Part shown: positions 6,619 to 13,341 of the stretch, piece by piece | Layout: every line of letters starts with the position of its first letter | Position numbering within the stretch: position 1 is the first letter of the stretch | Source of the DNA: Bacillus spizizenii TU-B-10 | GTDB taxonomy: Bacteria > Bacillota > Bacilli > Bacillales > Bacillaceae | Reading direction: 5' to 3' | DNA: 64,000 bases | Assembly: GCF_000227465.1 (NCBI RefSeq) | Contig: NC_016047.1 | Location: forward strand, 4,134,857 to 4,198,856 | Translations under genes and position numbers: made by a program | The notes under the pieces: model-generated | Seen by the model: the letters and a program-made list of their open reading frames with translations, nothing else | The model's database searches: none | What the model was told of the DNA's origin: nothing

Positions 6619-6683
6619 TATCCTCTCCATTCTTTTATAAAATAGAAGCAATATTAAGAAAATAATTGAGGGAGGTTCATACA

Positions 6684-8072
6684 GTGGTCAAAGACAGCGA
6701 GTTCCTCACGTTAGTGTTTCAAAGCATTTTGGATGAAATCGATGTTGGCCTGCACGTGGTAGACGAGCACGGAAACACGATCGTTTATAACAATAAAATG
6801 ATGCAAATTGAAGATATGGAGAAGCATGACGTCCTGAATAAAAACCTGATGGATGTGTTTATGTTTTCAAAACAGCAGGACAGCACGCTTGTACAGGCCC
6901 TTCAGGAAGGCAAAACAATTAAAAACGTCAAACAGAGCTATTTCAATAATAAAGGGCAGGAAATAACGACGATTAATCATACATATCCCATCGTCAAGGA
7001 CGGCAAGATCAGGGGCGCAGTCGAAATTGCCAAGGATGTGACAAAGCTTGAACGGCTGATCAGGGAGAATATGAACAAAAAAGGCAACACAACCTATACG
7101 TTTGACAGCATTCTCGGCACCAGTCCGGCCATTCAAGACGTCATCGAAAACGCCAAGCGGGCAACGCGGACGTCATCATCTGTCCTTCTCGCAGGCGAAA
7201 CCGGCACTGGAAAAGAGCTGTTTGCGCAAAGTATCCACAACGGCAGCGATCGTTCAGGAGGCCCGTTTATTTCACAAAACTGCGCGGCACTGCCAGACAG
7301 CCTTGTGGAAAGCATTTTGTTTGGAACGAAAAAAGGCGCGTTTACCGGCGCTGTAGACCAGCCCGGCCTGTTTGAACAAGCGCATGGCGGCACGCTGCTG
7401 TTAGATGAAATCAACTCGCTGAATCTCAGTCTTCAGGCGAAGCTGCTGCGCGCCCTTCAAGAACGGAAAATCAGGCGCATTGGTTCGACAAAGGATACAC
7501 CGATTGACGTGCGTATTATTGCCACGATGAACGAAGACCCGATTGATGCGATTGCGGGCGAACGAATGCGGAAGGACTTGTATTACAGGCTGAGCGTCGT
7601 GACGCTCATTATCCCGCCGCTTCGGGAACGAAAGGAAGACATTTTGCTTCTCGCGTCGGAGTTCATTCAGAAAAACAACCACCTGTTCCAAATGAATGTC
7701 GAACACATCAGCGAAGATGTGAAGCAATTTTTCCTATCCTACGACTGGCCGGGAAATATACGTGAGCTTGAGCATATGATCGAAGGCGCAATGAATTTCA
7801 TGACGGACGAGCAAACGATTACGGCTTCTCATCTGCCCTATCAATACCGCATGAAAATCAAGCCGGCTGACATCCCGGAGCCTGAAACACCAAGACACCA
7901 GCCGGCCGCAGACTTAAAGGAAAAAATGGAGAGCTTCGAAAAATACGTGATTGAGAACGTGTTAAGAAAACACGGCCATAACATCTCGCAAGCTGCTCAG
8001 GAGCTTGGCATCAGCAGACAAAGCCTCCAATACAGGCTGAAGAAATTTTCTCAACCGCCTGCCGAATCATAA
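6684..8072 (+). CDS. rocR: RocR, sigma-54-dependent activator of arginine catabolism
   Basis: An NtrC/NifA-type enhancer-binding protein of 462 residues. It has an N-terminal PAS-like sensor (about 10-125), a central AAA+ domain with Walker A GETGTGKE, the sigma-54 contact loop GAFTGA and Walker B GGTLLLDEI, and a C-terminal Fis-type helix-turn-helix (NISQAAQELGISRQSLQYRL). It activates rocABC, rocDEF and rocG in response to ornithine or citrulline. GTG at 6684 is chosen over an upstream TTG because GGGAGG precedes it at 10 bp. The C-terminal tail after KKF reads SQPPAES, unlike the 168 tail as I recall it, just where the accessory island begins. Confidence 0.94.
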   Translation: MVKDSEFLTLVFQSILDEIDVGLHVVDEHGNTIVYNNKMMQIEDMEKHDVLNKNLMDVFMFSKQQDSTLVQALQEGKTIKNVKQSYFNNKGQEITTINHTYPIVKDGKIRGAVEIAKDVTKLERLIRENMNKKGNTTYTFDSILGTSPAIQDVIENAKRATRTSSSVLLAGETGTGKELFAQSIHNGSDRSGGPFISQNCAALPDSLVESILFGTKKGAFTGAVDQPGLFEQAHGGTLLLDEINSLNLSLQAKLLRALQERKIRRIGSTKDTPIDVRIIATMNEDPIDAIAGERMRKDLYYRLSVVTLIIPPLRERKEDILLLASEFIQKNNHLFQMNVEHISEDVKQFFLSYDWPGNIRELEHMIEGAMNFMTDEQTITASHLPYQYRMKIKPADIPEPETPRHQPAADLKEKMESFEKYVIENVLRKHGHNISQAAQELGISRQSLQYRLKKFSQPPAES

Positions 8073-8074
8073 CC

Positions 8075-9526
8075 CTATTCCGGCGCAGGAAGCCTGATCA
8101 GAAAAACAGTGCCTCTGCCGATTTCACTTTTTACTTCAATCGTCCCATTGTGGCTGTCGATAATCGACTTCGTAATGGCAAGCCCCAGTCCCGAACCTCC
8201 ATATTTTCGGGAGCGGGATGGGTCTGCCCTGTAAAACCGGTCAAATAAATGCGGCAAATGCTCCGGCGCGATGCCTGTGCCGTTGTCCGCTATCATCAGC
8301 ATAACGCCATCATGGTCTTTTTGCAGCGAGATGGTGATGGCGCCGGTTTTCTCATCTGTAAACTGCACCGCGTTGTAAACCACATTCAGAATGACCTGTT
8401 TCATCTTATCCCGGTCAAAAACGGCTTCAGCGTGATCCTCAAGCAGCAGCTGCAGTTTTCTTTCTTTCGCAAGCAGACTGAGCTGCGGCTCCATTTCCCT
8501 TATGAGCAAATCGAGATCGCCTCTCTTCATTTCAAAGCTCGGCACCCGATCGATTTTTGCCAGAAACAGCAGGTCCTCTATCAGCCGAGTGGCTCTCTTC
8601 GATTCTTCATACATACTATTCAACGCTCTATCTCTCTGCTCCGGCTGAAGCGCCGCGCCCCGCAGCAACACTTCGATAAAGCCATGTATGGACGTTAATG
8701 GCGTTCTCAGCTCATGCGAAGCGTCTGATACAAATTGGCGGATGCGCTCCCTCGCTTCTTTTTCTGCTTTAAATGATATTTCAATCCGCTCCAGCATGTG
8801 ATTAAATGAAATAGCCAGCGCATCGATTTCCATTTGTTTTCGATAAACAGGAAGCCTTTTATTCAAATTTCCCGCATTGATATGCCCCATCATATGTACT
8901 ATTTGTGATAACGGTTTAAGCGTATGTCGGACCACGGGCAAGAATGTAAAAAGCCCGAGCAGGAGCGCGACAAGCGAGAGCGTAGAGTAAATGCTGATTT
9001 GCCTGAGGAGCACGTCCTTCAGCGGTGATGTTAAAGCACTCATTTGGATCACGCCTGCTTCTTTTCCATCAATATTAATAGCCTGAAACACAACCAGTAC
9101 TTCTTCGCCAAATTCATTTTTTGTCATTCTGTAGTGCAAGGCCATCGTATCTTCCAACGCCTCATCATATACACTTTTTTTAAATGTTGGCGGTGCTCCC
9201 GCATATGGGTCTGTCGACAATACCGTGCGGACTTTTGTTTTTTTATCAATAAAAACGATTGTTACACCTGGATAAATAAAGGCGGGACGGACAGCACCAT
9301 CTGACTTGTCCGGGCTGTCGGAATTGCTTTTGTATCTTTTAATGTTTTTCCATATGGTCGGCTCCGTCGAGTTGATATAACTCTGAATGCTGACAGCGCG
9401 GTTTTCATATAAGAGGCGTTTTCCAAACACATATTGCATGGCGCCGACAAAAAACAATAGAAGAACGAGAATGCACAACGAGCGGAATAAAAGCTGAAAG
9501 CGCAGCGTTTTGAATCGTTTCTTCAT
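8075..9526 (-). CDS. Membrane sensor histidine kinase of the PepSY island
   Basis: A 483-residue classical sensor kinase. TM1 spans about residues 11-32, then an extracytoplasmic domain of about 145 residues, TM2 about 176-198, and a HAMP linker. The HisKA box contains SHELRTPL (phospho-accepting His), and HATPase_c has an N box (NVVYNAVQFT), G1 (ADNGTGIAPEH) and G2 (GGSGLGLAI). It overlaps the upstream response regulator by 4 bp (ATGA), so the two are translated together. It is likely to sense an envelope signal and phosphorylate that regulator. The closest pattern in B. subtilis is YkoH, next to the PepSY protein YkoI. It ends 2 bp from the rocR stop, with no terminator in between. Confidence 0.88.
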   Translation of the reverse strand: MKKRFKTLRFQLLFRSLCILVLLLFFVGAMQYVFGKRLLYENRAVSIQSYINSTEPTIWKNIKRYKSNSDSPDKSDGAVRPAFIYPGVTIVFIDKKTKVRTVLSTDPYAGAPPTFKKSVYDEALEDTMALHYRMTKNEFGEEVLVVFQAINIDGKEAGVIQMSALTSPLKDVLLRQISIYSTLSLVALLLGLFTFLPVVRHTLKPLSQIVHMMGHINAGNLNKRLPVYRKQMEIDALAISFNHMLERIEISFKAEKEARERIRQFVSDASHELRTPLTSIHGFIEVLLRGAALQPEQRDRALNSMYEESKRATRLIEDLLFLAKIDRVPSFEMKRGDLDLLIREMEPQLSLLAKERKLQLLLEDHAEAVFDRDKMKQVILNVVYNAVQFTDEKTGAITISLQKDHDGVMLMIADNGTGIAPEHLPHLFDRFYRADPSRSRKYGGSGLGLAITKSIIDSHNGTIEVKSEIGRGTVFLIRLPAPE

Positions 9527-10206
9527 TCAATATCCACCCGATAGCCCGCACCGCGTACAGTGCGGATCACTTCATGCGTTTTGTCATTCAATTTTTCCCG
9601 CAAGGAACGGATGTACACTTCGACAATATTTTCTTCGCCGTAAAAGTCATAGCCCCATACTTTATCCAGAATCCTCGCTTTACTGAGCACAAGGCCGTGA
9701 TTCAGCACCAACAATTTCAGCAGCTCATATTCTGTTGCCGAAAGCTTCAGCACCTCTTCCTGATAGCGGATTTCTCTGCGTCGGTCATCAATCCGAAACG
9801 GGCCGAGCGCGACTTCTTCGAACAGGTTAGGGAAGTGATCCCGAATTCTTGCATAAATACGCGCCAGCAGCTCTTCAAAGCTGAAGGGTTTGATCATATA
9901 GTCATCAGCACCCTCTGTCAGAGCTTTTACCCGAATCCCCACCTCATCCTTTGCCGTGAGCATAATAATGGCGGTATGGCCGTTTTTTTTCATCATTTTC
10001 GATACTTCCAGCCCATCCATTCCGGGCATCATCACATCCAGGATGGCCACATGCGGCTGAAATGTTTTTGCGGTGTTCATTGCTGTCATTCCGTCAGCCG
10101 CAGTCTTAACCTCAAAGCCTTCATTTTCAAGACCCATTGTCAAAAAATCTAATATTGCCGGTTCATCGTCCACGAGCAAAATCTTGATGCCTTTCATCCT
10201 ATTCAT
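9523..10206 (-). CDS. OmpR/PhoB-family response regulator of the PepSY island
   Basis: A 227-residue regulator. The receiver domain has the acidic pair DDE (13-15), phospho-acceptor Asp57 in VAILDVMMPGMDG, and the conserved LTAKDE and IKPF motifs. The winged-helix DNA-binding domain (about 130-225) ends with the OmpR signature YIRSLREKLNDK and IRTVRGAGYRV. The ATG at 10206 has AAGGAGAG before it; an internal ATG three codons later is possible. It is divergent from the PepSY genes and shares a 211-bp intergenic region with them, so these are probable targets along with itself. It resembles YkoG by type; no symbol is assigned. Confidence 0.88.
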   Translation of the reverse strand: MNRMKGIKILLVDDEPAILDFLTMGLENEGFEVKTAADGMTAMNTAKTFQPHVAILDVMMPGMDGLEVSKMMKKNGHTAIIMLTAKDEVGIRVKALTEGADDYMIKPFSFEELLARIYARIRDHFPNLFEEVALGPFRIDDRRREIRYQEEVLKLSATEYELLKLLVLNHGLVLSKARILDKVWGYDFYGEENIVEVYIRSLREKLNDKTHEVIRTVRGAGYRVDIE

Positions 10207-10279
10207 GCTGTGCTCTCTCCTTAGTTGGCATAAACCTCTGATTAGTTTTTTCCCTTCCCTTCCTATTATTCGTTTTTAT

Positions 10280-10371
10280 CTGAAAACCAACTGAATCTTC
10301 CCTAAAAATCAGCTGAATTCAGCAAGTTTTCAGCCAGCCCTCATTTGATTTTCAGCTTCGGCCTATACAAT
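10280..10371 (+). promoter_or_regulatory. Shared divergent control region with repeated TTTTCAGC boxes
   Basis: TTTTCAGC occurs at 10327-10334 and 10349-10356, exactly 22 bp (two helical turns) apart, with the inverted form CTGAAAA at 10280. A weak promoter, TTGATT (10345) and TACAAT (10366), follows. This spacing fits tandem OmpR-type half sites just upstream of the PepSY gene; binding is inferred. A GTTGG-TTCAG-CCAAC hairpin sits in the leader at 10379-10393. Confidence 0.45.
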
Positions 10372-10417
10372 AGCCTTAGTTGGTTCAGCCAACAATGAAA
10401 TAAAGGAGGAACATCAT

Positions 10418-11317
10418 ATGAATATCACTAAAGTTTTATCAGGAGCCGCGCTGGGAACCATTATCTCAATCAGTTCTTTCACTTCCGCCCATGCCGCTGT
10501 CATTCAGAAGGATGATGCATCAGCGAAGGTCGAGACGAAGCAGCAGGCTTCCATCACAATAGCAAAAGCAAAGCAAGTTGCTTTGAACAAATGCAAGGGT
10601 ACTGTTCAATCTGCCCAAATGAAGAAAGTGAACGGCACTTACGTATATGTAGTCAAAGTTCTCGGTGAGGACGGCAAACAGCATACGATGAACGTTAACT
10701 GCGACAGCGGTAAAGTTGTGAAACACGACGTTCAAAAGAAACAAAGCTACATCAGCAAATCAAAAGCTCATTCGCTCGCTTTGAAAAACTGCCAAGGCGC
10801 GGTTCAATCTTCTGAGCTGAAGAAAGAAAACGGTGTTTACGTTTATGTCGTGAAAGTATTGGGTGAAGATGGAAGCCTTCACTCGTTCCATATCAATGGA
10901 GAAAACGGCAAAGTGGCAAAACACGAGCAAAAGAAACAAGCACATCTTTCAAAAACAAAAGCGCATCAAATCGCACTGAACAAGTACAAAGGCGCAGTTC
11001 AATCTTCTGAACTGAAGAAAGAAAACGGCGTTTACATCTACCTTGTAAAAGTGCTGGGCGAAGATGGCAGCACCCATACAATCCATGTCAACTGTGACAG
11101 CGGTAAAATCGTAAAACAAGAAGTGCAAAAGAAAAACGCAGCCATTACGAAAACAAAAGCACATCAAATCGCGCTAAACAAATGCAAAGGCACAGTGAAA
11201 TCTTCTGCTTTGAAGAAAGAAAACGGTAAATACGTTTACGTGATTAAAATCACTGCCCAAAACCACACTGAGCAAACAGTGAAAGTGAACGCTGAAAACG
11301 GAAGCATTTGCAAATAA
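10418..11317 (+). CDS. Secreted four-repeat PepSY-like protein with paired cysteines
   Basis: This 299-residue protein has a signal peptide (cleavage after TSAHA, about residue 26) and four tandem repeats of about 62 residues. Each repeat reads like a PepSY domain: a helix (KAKQVALNKCKGTVQS), then YVYVVKVLGEDGKQH and VNCDSGKVV strands. Cysteines sit at two repeat positions (the 'C' of NKCKG and of VNC), but not evenly. Repeat 2 lacks the second and repeat 3 the first; the last has a terminal Cys instead. There are six in all, which suggests disulfides outside the cell. PepSY domains often inhibit peptidases or sit in sensors; the role here is unknown. A strong RBS AAAGGAGG precedes the ATG. 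Probably controlled by the divergent two-component system. Confidence 0.85.
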   Translation: MNITKVLSGAALGTIISISSFTSAHAAVIQKDDASAKVETKQQASITIAKAKQVALNKCKGTVQSAQMKKVNGTYVYVVKVLGEDGKQHTMNVNCDSGKVVKHDVQKKQSYISKSKAHSLALKNCQGAVQSSELKKENGVYVYVVKVLGEDGSLHSFHINGENGKVAKHEQKKQAHLSKTKAHQIALNKYKGAVQSSELKKENGVYIYLVKVLGEDGSTHTIHVNCDSGKIVKQEVQKKNAAITKTKAHQIALNKCKGTVKSSALKKENGKYVYVIKITAQNHTEQTVKVNAENGSICK

Positions 11318-11426
11318 AAATTGATACTTGCCAGCAGTGAAACAACTGCAATTCAACGTATAACACCAGTCTTGTTTTAACACGAAGTTCTAAGTTCATG
11401 TCTACCTTTTTCTAAATACTCTTTTA

Positions 11427-11460
11427 AACTGAACGTGCGTGACCCGCGTTCAGTTCTTTT
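11427..11460 (+). terminator. Terminator after the first PepSY gene
   Basis: AACTGAACG pairs with CGTTCAGTT around an 11-base loop, followed by CTTTT. A near copy follows the second PepSY gene, so gene and terminator appear duplicated together. Confidence 0.8.
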
Positions 11461-11488
11461 TACATCATCATCTAAGGAGGACGTAAAA

Positions 11489-11989
11489 ATGAATGTGAAA
11501 ATATTATCAGCAGCTGCTTTAGGCGCTGTCATCTCAATCAGTTCTTTATCTTCCACGCACGCGGCTGTTCTTCATAAAGAAGACACTGCTAAAGTCCAAA
11601 CACAGCAGCAGGCTTCTATTACGCTTTCCAAAGCGAAAACAATTGCATTACACAACTGCAACGGCGCGGTTCAATCGGCTCAAATGAAGAAAGTAAACGG
11701 GGTTTATGTCTATGTCATTAAGGTGCTCGGTGAAGACGGAAAAGTTCACACCTTCAACGTCAACTGCAGCAACGGAAAAGTCGTCAAGCATCACGTTGAC
11801 AACAAACAAGCCGCAGTCACAAAAGCAAAAGCACAAAGCATTGCGCTGAACAAATGCAAAGGTACAGTCAAGTCTTCTGCATTGAAGAAAGAGAACGGCA
11901 TCTATGTGTACATCATTAAAATCACAGCCAGCAACCACACAGTACAAACCATTAAAGTCAATGCTGAAAACGGAAGCATTTGCAGTTAA
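11489..11989 (+). CDS. Secreted two-repeat PepSY-like protein, paralog of the gene before it
   Basis: A 166-residue shorter paralog. It has a signal peptide ending in STHA and two PepSY-like repeats. The first resembles repeat 1 of the upstream gene (VQSAQMKKVNG, VKVLGEDGK-type strands), and the second resembles its repeat 4 (GTVKSSALKKENG ... VNAENGSIC). So it looks like the longer protein with repeats 2 and 3 removed. It has four cysteines (HNC, VNC, NKC, SIC). The ATG at 11489 follows CTAAGGAGG; an in-frame ATG at 11435 lies inside the preceding terminator and is rejected. Any promoter must lie within the 170 bp after the first gene, or transcription reads through its terminator. Confidence 0.83.
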   Translation: MNVKILSAAALGAVISISSLSSTHAAVLHKEDTAKVQTQQQASITLSKAKTIALHNCNGAVQSAQMKKVNGVYVYVIKVLGEDGKVHTFNVNCSNGKVVKHHVDNKQAAVTKAKAQSIALNKCKGTVKSSALKKENGIYVYIIKITASNHTVQTIKVNAENGSICS

Positions 11990-12003
11990 CAGGCATTGCC
12001 TGC

Positions 12004-12019
12004 TGTTTCACGTGTAACA
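12004..12019. promoter_or_regulatory. parS-like site in the PepSY island
   Basis: TGTTTCACGTGTAACA differs at one position from the B. subtilis parS consensus TGTTTCACGTGAAACA. It lies between the second PepSY stop and its terminator. Binding by Spo0J is plausible but unproven. Confidence 0.45.
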
Positions 12020-12060
12020 TCCATCTTGTATTTTTCTTCATATTCGATATATCCTTGTTC

Positions 12061-12094
12061 AACTGAACGGGCGTGACCCCCGTTCAGTTTTTTT
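12061..12094 (+). terminator. Terminator after the second PepSY gene
   Basis: AACTGAACGG pairs with CCGTTCAGTT, followed by T6. The stem is nearly identical to the terminator at 11427. Confidence 0.85.
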
Positions 12095-12135: not shown

Positions 12136-13341
12136 CTAACTTCCTAATTGATCTGCGGAGGAAAGCTTGATGTCAACGGATTTTTCTTTACCGCTGCGGT
12201 AAAACTTCACCTTCACCCGGTCACCGACTTTTTTCTGATAAAGCCGTTTCCGCAGATCAACAATATCATTTACTTTGTATCCGTCAAATTCCGTGATGAC
12301 ATCCAGTTCCTTCAGCCCTGCTTTTCCGGCAGGTGAGAAGGCATCTACACCCATCACAACCGCTCCATTGGTGACATCCTTAGGAAGCTTCAATGTTTCA
12401 TCCCAATGATAGCTTGCAATATCGCTTAGCGATTTCATCTCAATGCCAAGGAACGGACGTTTGACTTTGCCGTATTTCTCTAAATCCTCTATCACAGGGA
12501 TCACAAGCTTAGACGGAATCGACAGGCCAATCCCTTCAACCGCCGATTCGGCAATTTTCATTGAATTGATACCAATGACTTTCCCATCCATATTTAACAA
12601 AGCGCCGCCGCTGTTCCCAGGGTTAATGGCCGCATCTGTTTGCAGGACTTCTGCGTTCCAGTCAGGCTGTCCGTCATCGTTTGAATCCACAGGAATTGCC
12701 CTCTCCGTACCCGAGATGACGCCCTGTGTGACAGAACCTGCAAACTCAAGGCCTAACGGGTTCCCGATTGCGATAACCGGCTCACCAGATTGGACTTTAT
12801 CTGAATTACCGAAGTCGGCGACTGCTTTAATTTTATCGCTTTTCACCCGTAAAACGGCAAGATCCATCAGCTGGTCACTGCCGACAAGTTCAGCCGCTAC
12901 ACGCGAGCCGTCTTTCAAGCTGATTTCAATTTGGGAAGCGCCCTCGATGACATGATGGTTGGTCACGACATAAGCAGAGTTGTCATTTTTCTTATAGATG
13001 ACGCCGGAGCCGCTCCCAGCCTCACCGCTCTCTCCCCAAATGTCTGATTTTTGGATGTTCACAACGCCGACAACGGCAGGCGACACATTGCTGACAATCT
13101 TGGTGACCGCATTGTTGACACTGACATTCACCGTCCTGATTGATTCCCGGCCATTGTTGTTGTTCTGCTGCTGATCTAAGGCACCCGTATCTAACCCTTC
13201 ATTTGAAAAGTACGGCATGAGAAACGCCATTAATACGGCACCGACAATCACGCCAATCAGACTAGAAAGAAAATATCCTTTTTTGCTTCTCTTTGGCTGT
13301 TCAGGAGTAGTATGTTCTTCCTCACGATCGTAATCCACCAT
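12136..13341 (-). CDS. yyxA: HtrA/DegP-type membrane serine protease YyxA (HtrC)
   Basis: A 401-residue HtrA-family protease. It has a short cytoplasmic tail, one membrane anchor (about 24-45), a Ser/Asn-rich linker with an N/Q stretch, a trypsin-like domain with His130 (NHHVIEG), Asp160 (MDLAVL) and Ser244 (GNSGGA), and one C-terminal PDZ domain (about 300-395). It should degrade or refold misfolded envelope proteins, the third family member beside HtrA and HtrB. It is the last gene of the wal cluster, 81 bp after walJ. Its position here, separated from rocR by the PepSY island, differs from 168 as I recall, where it adjoins rocR. Confidence 0.92.

Follow-up and report, generated by a model that had tools for sequence, protein, structure and literature searches.

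The stretch of DNA considered here (the window) comprises 64,000 nucleotides of the genome of Bacillus spizizenii TU-B-10 (contig NC_016047.1, positions 4,134,857 to 4,198,856) and carries, between rocR and htrC (yyxA), a compact two-component module in which a histidine kinase gene and a response regulator gene diverge from two genes for exported proteins built of PepSY repeats, here termed PepSY1 and PepSY2. The genes of the module, the hairpins associated with them and the flanking genes are as follows, in window positions with the strand in brackets.

8075..9526 (-), sensor histidine kinase gene, 483 amino acids, with HAMP, HisKA and HATPase_c domains
9523..10206 (-), OmpR/PhoB-type response regulator gene, 227 amino acids, with Response_reg and Trans_reg_C domains
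10418..11317 (+), PepSY1 gene, 299 amino acids, signal peptide and four PepSY repeats
11427..11455 (+), terminator-like hairpin between PepSY1 and PepSY2
11489..11989 (+), PepSY2 gene, 166 amino acids, signal peptide and two PepSY repeats
12061..12089 (+), terminator-like hairpin 3' of PepSY2, near-identical to that at 11427..11455
6666-8072 (+), rocR, left flank
12136-13341 (-), htrC/yyxA, right flank

Gene calls and domain searches bear out the layout given in the initial annotation, namely a kinase and a regulator gene that share a 4-bp overlap and are divergent from two secreted PepSY genes. The ratio of nonsynonymous to synonymous substitution rates (dN/dS) relative to B. inaquosorum is 0.05-0.13 across the four genes, which argues that none is a chance open reading frame (ORF); the four genes are real and positioned as described. 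The pair is of the OmpR/PhoB type, with a receiver and winged-helix regulator adjoining a HisKA/HATPase kinase, and both exported proteins have the PepSY fold that defines family PF03413, whose profile scores 122.9 bits for PepSY1 (E 6e-36) and 63.8 bits for PepSY2 (E 2e-17) relative to a cut-off of 24. The kinase has two membrane segments as read from its sequence, and its extracytoplasmic sensor (approximately residues 36-178) weakly matches PAS/PDC-like domains; these matches are too weak for a fold assignment, and no ligand is claimed. Here and below, the names walR, phoP, walJ and yko are those we presume from gene position or layout.

The divergent region contains the following candidate regulatory elements.

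10280..10317 (-), putative operator array toward the regulator-kinase promoter, with CTGAA at 10280, 10291 and 10313 and a degenerate copy at 10302
10318..10355 (+), putative operator array toward the PepSY1 promoter, with TTCAG at 10318, 10329 and 10351 and a degenerate copy at 10340
10366..10371 (+), -10-like element TACAAT, 10 nt past the last half-site, with a poor -35

The two arrays lie back to back, each with four repeats at an 11-bp step, and in an alignment of this region from seven genomes the repeats are conserved and the spacing to the -10-like element (TAGAAT in genome G041) is identical. Because that element starts 10 nt past the last half-site, the array would overlie the position of the poor -35, and activators of the PhoB type bind arrays situated in place of a poor -35. 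The full pattern TTCAG-N6-TTCAG-N17-TTCAG has a single exact match in the B. spizizenii genome, at this locus, and two more at one mismatch, one of which is the opposite array; it is absent at up to one mismatch from a genome that we take to be that of B. subtilis 168 (hereafter the presumed 168 genome). At two mismatches the matches listed exceed a reversed control approximately 10-fold whether or not the regulator gene is present, and they were therefore not used. Single matches to a looser pattern, TTCAGBWWRNYTTCAG, likewise mean little, since seven of eight genomes without the regulator have them; seven extra matches to it that were inspected comprised three within long ORFs and four that were intergenic or in a doubtful ORF. 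Of these four, one belongs to the MacB-type operon of G423, two stand ahead of a permease gene in G312 and G265 (see below), and one is in the B. spizizenii genome.

The rocR-htrC interval was read in 17 of the 44 genomes of the genus (the window and 16 others), and the comparison that the initial annotation had proposed does reveal variable presence, in a pattern of loss rather than gain: five genomes have an intact kinase, regulator and PepSY complement, two have decaying copies and ten are without the module. Intact modules have two PepSY genes in the window and in B. inaquosorum, and one in B. nakamurai, B. velezensis and genome G002, which we take to be DSM 7. The decaying copies are those of Bacillus sp. 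ISL-51, in which the kinase and regulator are kept and PepSY1 is missing its signal peptide and first part, and B. siamensis, in which the kinase is kept and the regulator is reduced to scraps. At two further htrC loci (G041 and G022) neither rocR nor the module lies beside htrC in the stretch read, and G041 has its module elsewhere. In the presumed 168 genome and nine others, rocR and htrC are adjacent, except that B. atrophaeus has a 6-kb cluster of genes between them. Adjacency of the two genes in strain 168 was thus rightly anticipated for the presumed 168 genome, but the gap there is a deletion scar of this same module. Coding fragments were found by tblastn in seven of the ten module-free genomes, derived from the kinase in the presumed 168 genome, G005 and N13C7, and from PepSY genes in the presumed 168 genome, G036, G039, B. 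halotolerans and B. atrophaeus. When the scars of nine of the ten were aligned by blastn (B. atrophaeus being left out), the left match to the window stopped between 8052, within rocR, and 8269, and the right match restarted at positions ranging from 11736 to 12065, which fall within PepSY2 or just 3' of it, the breakpoints varying among genomes. In the presumed 168 scar, kinase codons 427-483 (93% identical) adjoin PepSY2 codons 127-166 on the other strand (80-91% identical, with one frameshift). The deletion corresponds to window positions 8246-11866 and leaves the hairpin at 12061..12089 in place.

In a tree of rocR, htrC and walJ, the clade of the window strain excludes both B. atrophaeus and the mojavensis/halotolerans pair with a support of 100, the inner clade being poorly supported (28-81). 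Given losses outside the clade, at least one within it and two decays in the amyloliquefaciens group, at least five loss events would be required if there was no re-acquisition; transformation could have restored some copies. Where the module is intact, dN/dS of its genes is 0.05-0.17 (window-B. inaquosorum and G002-B. velezensis comparisons), and the regulator of the B. nakamurai/ISL-51 pair has a value of 0.16, whereas the values for the solitary kinase of B. siamensis are 0.19-0.25, versus 0.05-0.07 for htrC of that genome. These values indicate that the module is kept under purifying selection in B. inaquosorum, the window strain and the representatives of B. velezensis/amyloliquefaciens. 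In four genomes of another family (f44) the module lies no more than approximately 5 kb from htrC, so its placement near this gene is old. The module itself is old and has been deleted repeatedly, including in the presumed 168 genome.

Beyond this locus, the kinase was detected in eight of the 44 genomes of the genus (threshold 1e-60), and a search of 397 genomes of the order with a profile of its sensor gave 13 from outside the genus. The regulator is present in 20 of those 397 genomes, never below 64% identity. In the class it is present in 80 of 398 genomes (threshold 1e-70); 73 of these copies reach at least 60% identity, and the other seven, at 52-54%, may represent another group. Neighbourhoods were read for 44 kinase-regulator pairs, chosen as representatives. 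PepSY genes lie beside 11 pairs, YkcB-type/GT2/GtrA genes beside ten (five divergent, four co-directional, and in G512 a GT2 gene one ORF away), and genes for an FtsX-type permease with an ATP-binding cassette (ABC) ATPase beside seven; the other 16 had other neighbours or none recognised. A profile made from the PepSY repeats themselves found no PepSY gene beside 33 of the 44 pairs in the stretch read. The 11 PepSY-linked pairs form one clade (ultrafast bootstrap, UFBoot, 95) in a tree rooted with YkoGH whose deeper nodes are weak. The regulator group as a whole is widespread in the Bacilli, and some of its members stand next to other genes connected with the cell surface. On a plasmid of Alicyclobacillus fastidiosus (L296 3214-9178) the pair is divergent from genes for a peptidoglycan-binding protein, a flavin mononucleotide transferase and a ferric-reductase-like protein, a possible further kind of output, and in G494 (L326 5381-5662) a gene for a CsoR-like metal-sensitive repressor is divergent from the regulator gene and a YkcB gene follows the kinase.

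The putative operator follows the regulator through these differing neighbourhoods. A pair of TTCAG or CTGAA repeats spaced by 11 bp occurs within the 360 bp around the regulator start at 33 of 43 loci, compared with 31 of 3803 control windows drawn from the same loci (L343 and B. siamensis, for which no regulator ORF was placed, being uncounted); the 33 loci are non-independent through relatedness, yet the neighbouring genes differ completely between groups. In all four f44 genomes a second PepSY gene, facing the kinase 3' end, has its own array of four TTCAG repeats upstream. The divergent output in G423 is a YkcB operon, and there an operon for HlyD, an ABC ATPase and MacB/FtsX is preceded by another complete operator. 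These separate sites tie the operator to the outputs, and it is very probable from the distribution of sites that the regulator switches on the PepSY genes. Weighing against this is the divergent PepSY gene of the f44 genomes, on whose side just one TTCAG is present, whereas the array in that region faces the regulator. In G312 and G265 an operator-like site (L377 4125-4140 and L378 4092-4107) also precedes an amino-acid permease gene, the same one in both genomes, and may mark a second target in that group.

The exported proteins of the window are strongly basic. Mature PepSY1 has 47 lysines, no arginine, six cysteines, a net charge of +25 and an isoelectric point of 9.7; mature PepSY2 has a net charge of +13 and no arginine; and their Bacillus orthologues range from +12 to +28 with an arginine count of 0 or 1. 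Four f44 PepSY proteins for which charge was computed range from -5 to +10. Cysteines recur at two places in most of the aligned repeats, consistent with intra-repeat disulfides. The PepSY1 signal peptide (10418-10501) is more conserved than the mature part, both relative to G041 (85% versus 51% identity) and relative to f44 (50-58% versus 32-35%), whereas the reverse holds for YkoJ, used as a control (42% versus 51%); synonymous change in it is ordinary, placing the conservation at the amino-acid level. Among 18 pairs of signal-peptide-bearing proteins compared between this genome and G002, PepSY1 has the greatest excess of signal over mature identity (+0.24, with a median of -0.16), in a small sample in which two other proteins reach +0.16 and +0.13 and of which a cruder run ranked a doubtful ORF above PepSY1. 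A sequence search of the PDB with a PepSY profile returned only 9vy3 and 4exr, at E-values up to 1. Genome G007, which is without this kinase at 1e-60, has a short PepSY-like stretch (L141 5613-5941) approximately 49% identical to the PepSY1 repeats.

Taken together, these features make it probable, if well short of certain, that the locus is an old, autoregulated envelope two-component module with exported lysine-rich PepSY effectors and possible damping of the kinase. The kinase would use its extracytoplasmic domain to sense perturbation at the membrane or wall, and would phosphorylate the OmpR-type regulator, which, as the sequence evidence strongly suggests, would bind the tandem 11-bp repeats and activate PepSY1 along with its own operon, PepSY2 presumably being expressed by read-through past the intervening hairpin. 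Once exported, PepSY1 and PepSY2 might lodge on the anionic wall as effectors that shield against, sequester or inhibit a harmful agent, and they may additionally damp the kinase. The proposal in the initial annotation of a self-contained module in which the regulator activates exported PepSY proteins finds support at the level of sequence in the arrays at both promoters and those of the second PepSY genes of f44. The feedback on the kinase that it also raised has a precedent in DbfQ (see below), and nothing found here points to an action on cell-wall proteases. The idea of an envelope signal comes solely from the genes that accompany related pairs. Glycosylation of wall polymers and export of the MacB kind alter or protect the cell surface, and envelope genes are also the reported targets of YrkP, HexR and YkoG.

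The closest known parallel is the DbfQRS system of Vibrio cholerae and its kin, in which an exported PepSY protein is encoded beside an overlapping regulator/kinase pair, and a PepSY gene within four genes of the kinase and regulator, as found here, characterizes modules of this type. DbfQ binds the sensor of DbfS with a dissociation constant (Kd) of 30 nM and can hold its kinase in phosphatase mode, and PepSY genes are reported to neighbour two-component genes at more than 60 times the frequency expected by chance, in some cases on the opposite strand; positive feedback, cases with two PepSY genes and opposite-strand layouts are likewise reported for DbfQRS-like modules (PMC12714742). The present PepSY proteins could accordingly be mainly kinase ligands that hold the sensor in phosphatase mode until stress removes them, any effector role being secondary or absent, and we regard this as a genuine possibility, albeit an unlikely one. 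As co-evolution would predict, the PepSY-linked f44 kinases match the window sensor profile better (E ~1e-34) than the others (1e-21 to 2e-7), although these closer sensors may merely follow the species tree. Unlike DbfQRS, the locus has two multi-repeat, basic PepSY genes at a divergent promoter with a readable putative operator, and the kinase group mostly stands without PepSY; with 33 of 44 pairs having no PepSY neighbour, the protein is no obligatory partner of this kinase group, and the several repeats across two genes (four and two here, five and four in f44) resemble bulk output. We therefore lean toward an effector role with possible feedback on the kinase.

A broader proposal, which we advance tentatively and consider somewhat doubtful, is that the sensor, regulator and operator form a class-wide chassis whose outputs have been exchanged, operator and circuit being kept, with envelope glycosylation, MacB/FtsX-type export or the export of lysine-only PepSY repeat proteins (gained once) as alternatives, the last acting as a wall-coating shield against cationic attack. 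If so, PepSY repeats would be direct envelope-defence effectors, beyond regulators of a protease or kinase. What the common PepSY domains do is unsettled; here one regulator group with a readable operator reveals what replaces them, namely glycosyltransferases and exporters, and comparison of the replacements yields a testable guess at the signal as well as the function. The loss would also account for the system having escaped studies of strain 168, only a scar being left there. Exchangeable outputs are the more surprising part of this variant of PepSY-linked two-component systems.

That the module instead concerns metals, with a metal-sensing kinase and PepSY proteins binding an ion in the manner of UipA of Microbacterium (uranium/iron) or LanP of Methylobacillus (lanthanides), is improbable. 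Those proteins share with PepSY1 and PepSY2 a tandem arrangement of PepSY domains outside the cytoplasm; their metal binding, however, is ascribed in the available descriptions to acidic residues, whereas the Bacillus proteins are lysine-rich polycations, and their overall charge (+25 and +13) disfavours the idea. Both partners score below the heavy-metal models TIGR01386/TIGR01387 (kinase 239.6 bits relative to a cut-off of 292.55, regulator 184.2 relative to 279.2), and among the neighbours scanned, which were not all of those present, metal or redox genes were seen only at the L326 and Alicyclobacillus L296 loci. We know of no adjoining two-component system for the PepSY domain proteins YpmB and YpeB.

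The initial annotation had compared the locus with ykoG-ykoH-ykoI, and the likeness goes no further than layout, the YkoGH-YkoI-YkoJ locus (at approximately 1500-1504 kb in this genome) also comprising an OmpR-type regulator, a kinase and two PepSY genes. The yko genes, however, are co-directional. The kinase aligns with YkoH only in the catalytic core (34% identity over residues 233-479), BLASTP giving nothing significant outside it, such that no homology of the sensors is seen; YkoG is 39% identical to the regulator, no closer than two other paralogues; YkoJ and YkoI have net charges of -25 and -2 compared with +25 for PepSY1; and the matches listed for the presumed 168 genome include no 11-bp TTCAG/CTGAA pair ahead of ykoG or ykoI. 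Derivation as a YkoGH paralogue was rejected on the grounds that the regulator is not the YkoG orthologue, the sensors show no significant similarity and the listed matches include no operator pair at ykoG or ykoI. At two yko loci (L152 4005-5289 and L153 5238-6542), two PepSY genes come after ykoGH; the product of one has a membrane segment at its N-terminus, and that of the other is secreted. In the presumed 168 genome the secreted product is strongly acidic, opposite in charge to the window pair. Control of the glycosyltransferase operon ykoST has been reported for YkoGH (PMC5836110). Two other systems, YrkPQ of B. subtilis and HexRK of Clostridioides difficile, have small membrane or envelope regulons, YrkP being reported to control ykcBC, which is related to the neighbours of some regulator relatives; daptomycin and bacitracin both failed to induce a HexRK reporter, and the available text of that source names no PepSY gene in connection with either system (PMC10128005). 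Regulator paralogues in the window genome reach at most 42% identity, which makes a close relation to YrkPQ unlikely (YrkP itself being uncompared). Literature searches found no paper joining rocR and yyxA, and those on PepSY/two-component/Bacillus, yko, velezensis/spizizenii/megaterium, ykcB/GtrA and teichoic acid returned none recognised as concerning this locus.

Recent horizontal insertion between rocR and htrC, with strain 168 representing the original state as the word "inserted" in the initial annotation implied, would fit the adjacency of the two genes in ten of the 17 genomes, but is rejected as having a negligible probability in view of the kinase or PepSY fragments at the site in the presumed 168 genome and six others, the intact copies, which occupy this site throughout the group and in another family lie close to htrC, and a synonymous divergence from B. 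inaquosorum (0.16-0.29) like that of the flanking genes (0.24-0.29). The same interval holds, in B. velezensis and B. atrophaeus, a five-gene cluster between rocR and the module or scar, encoding a ThiF-type enzyme, an SBP-like protein, a major facilitator superfamily (MFS) transporter, an ABC-F-like ATPase and a JmjC/cupin protein (Pfam assignments from L125 only); its MFS gene is present without the rest in G002 and B. nakamurai. In these genomes the cluster or the MFS gene lies at L125 3412-9438, L124 7792-8982, L123 6630-7838 and L139 2807-8779. The cluster looks like one for a modified-peptide antibiotic, presumably of the microcin C type.

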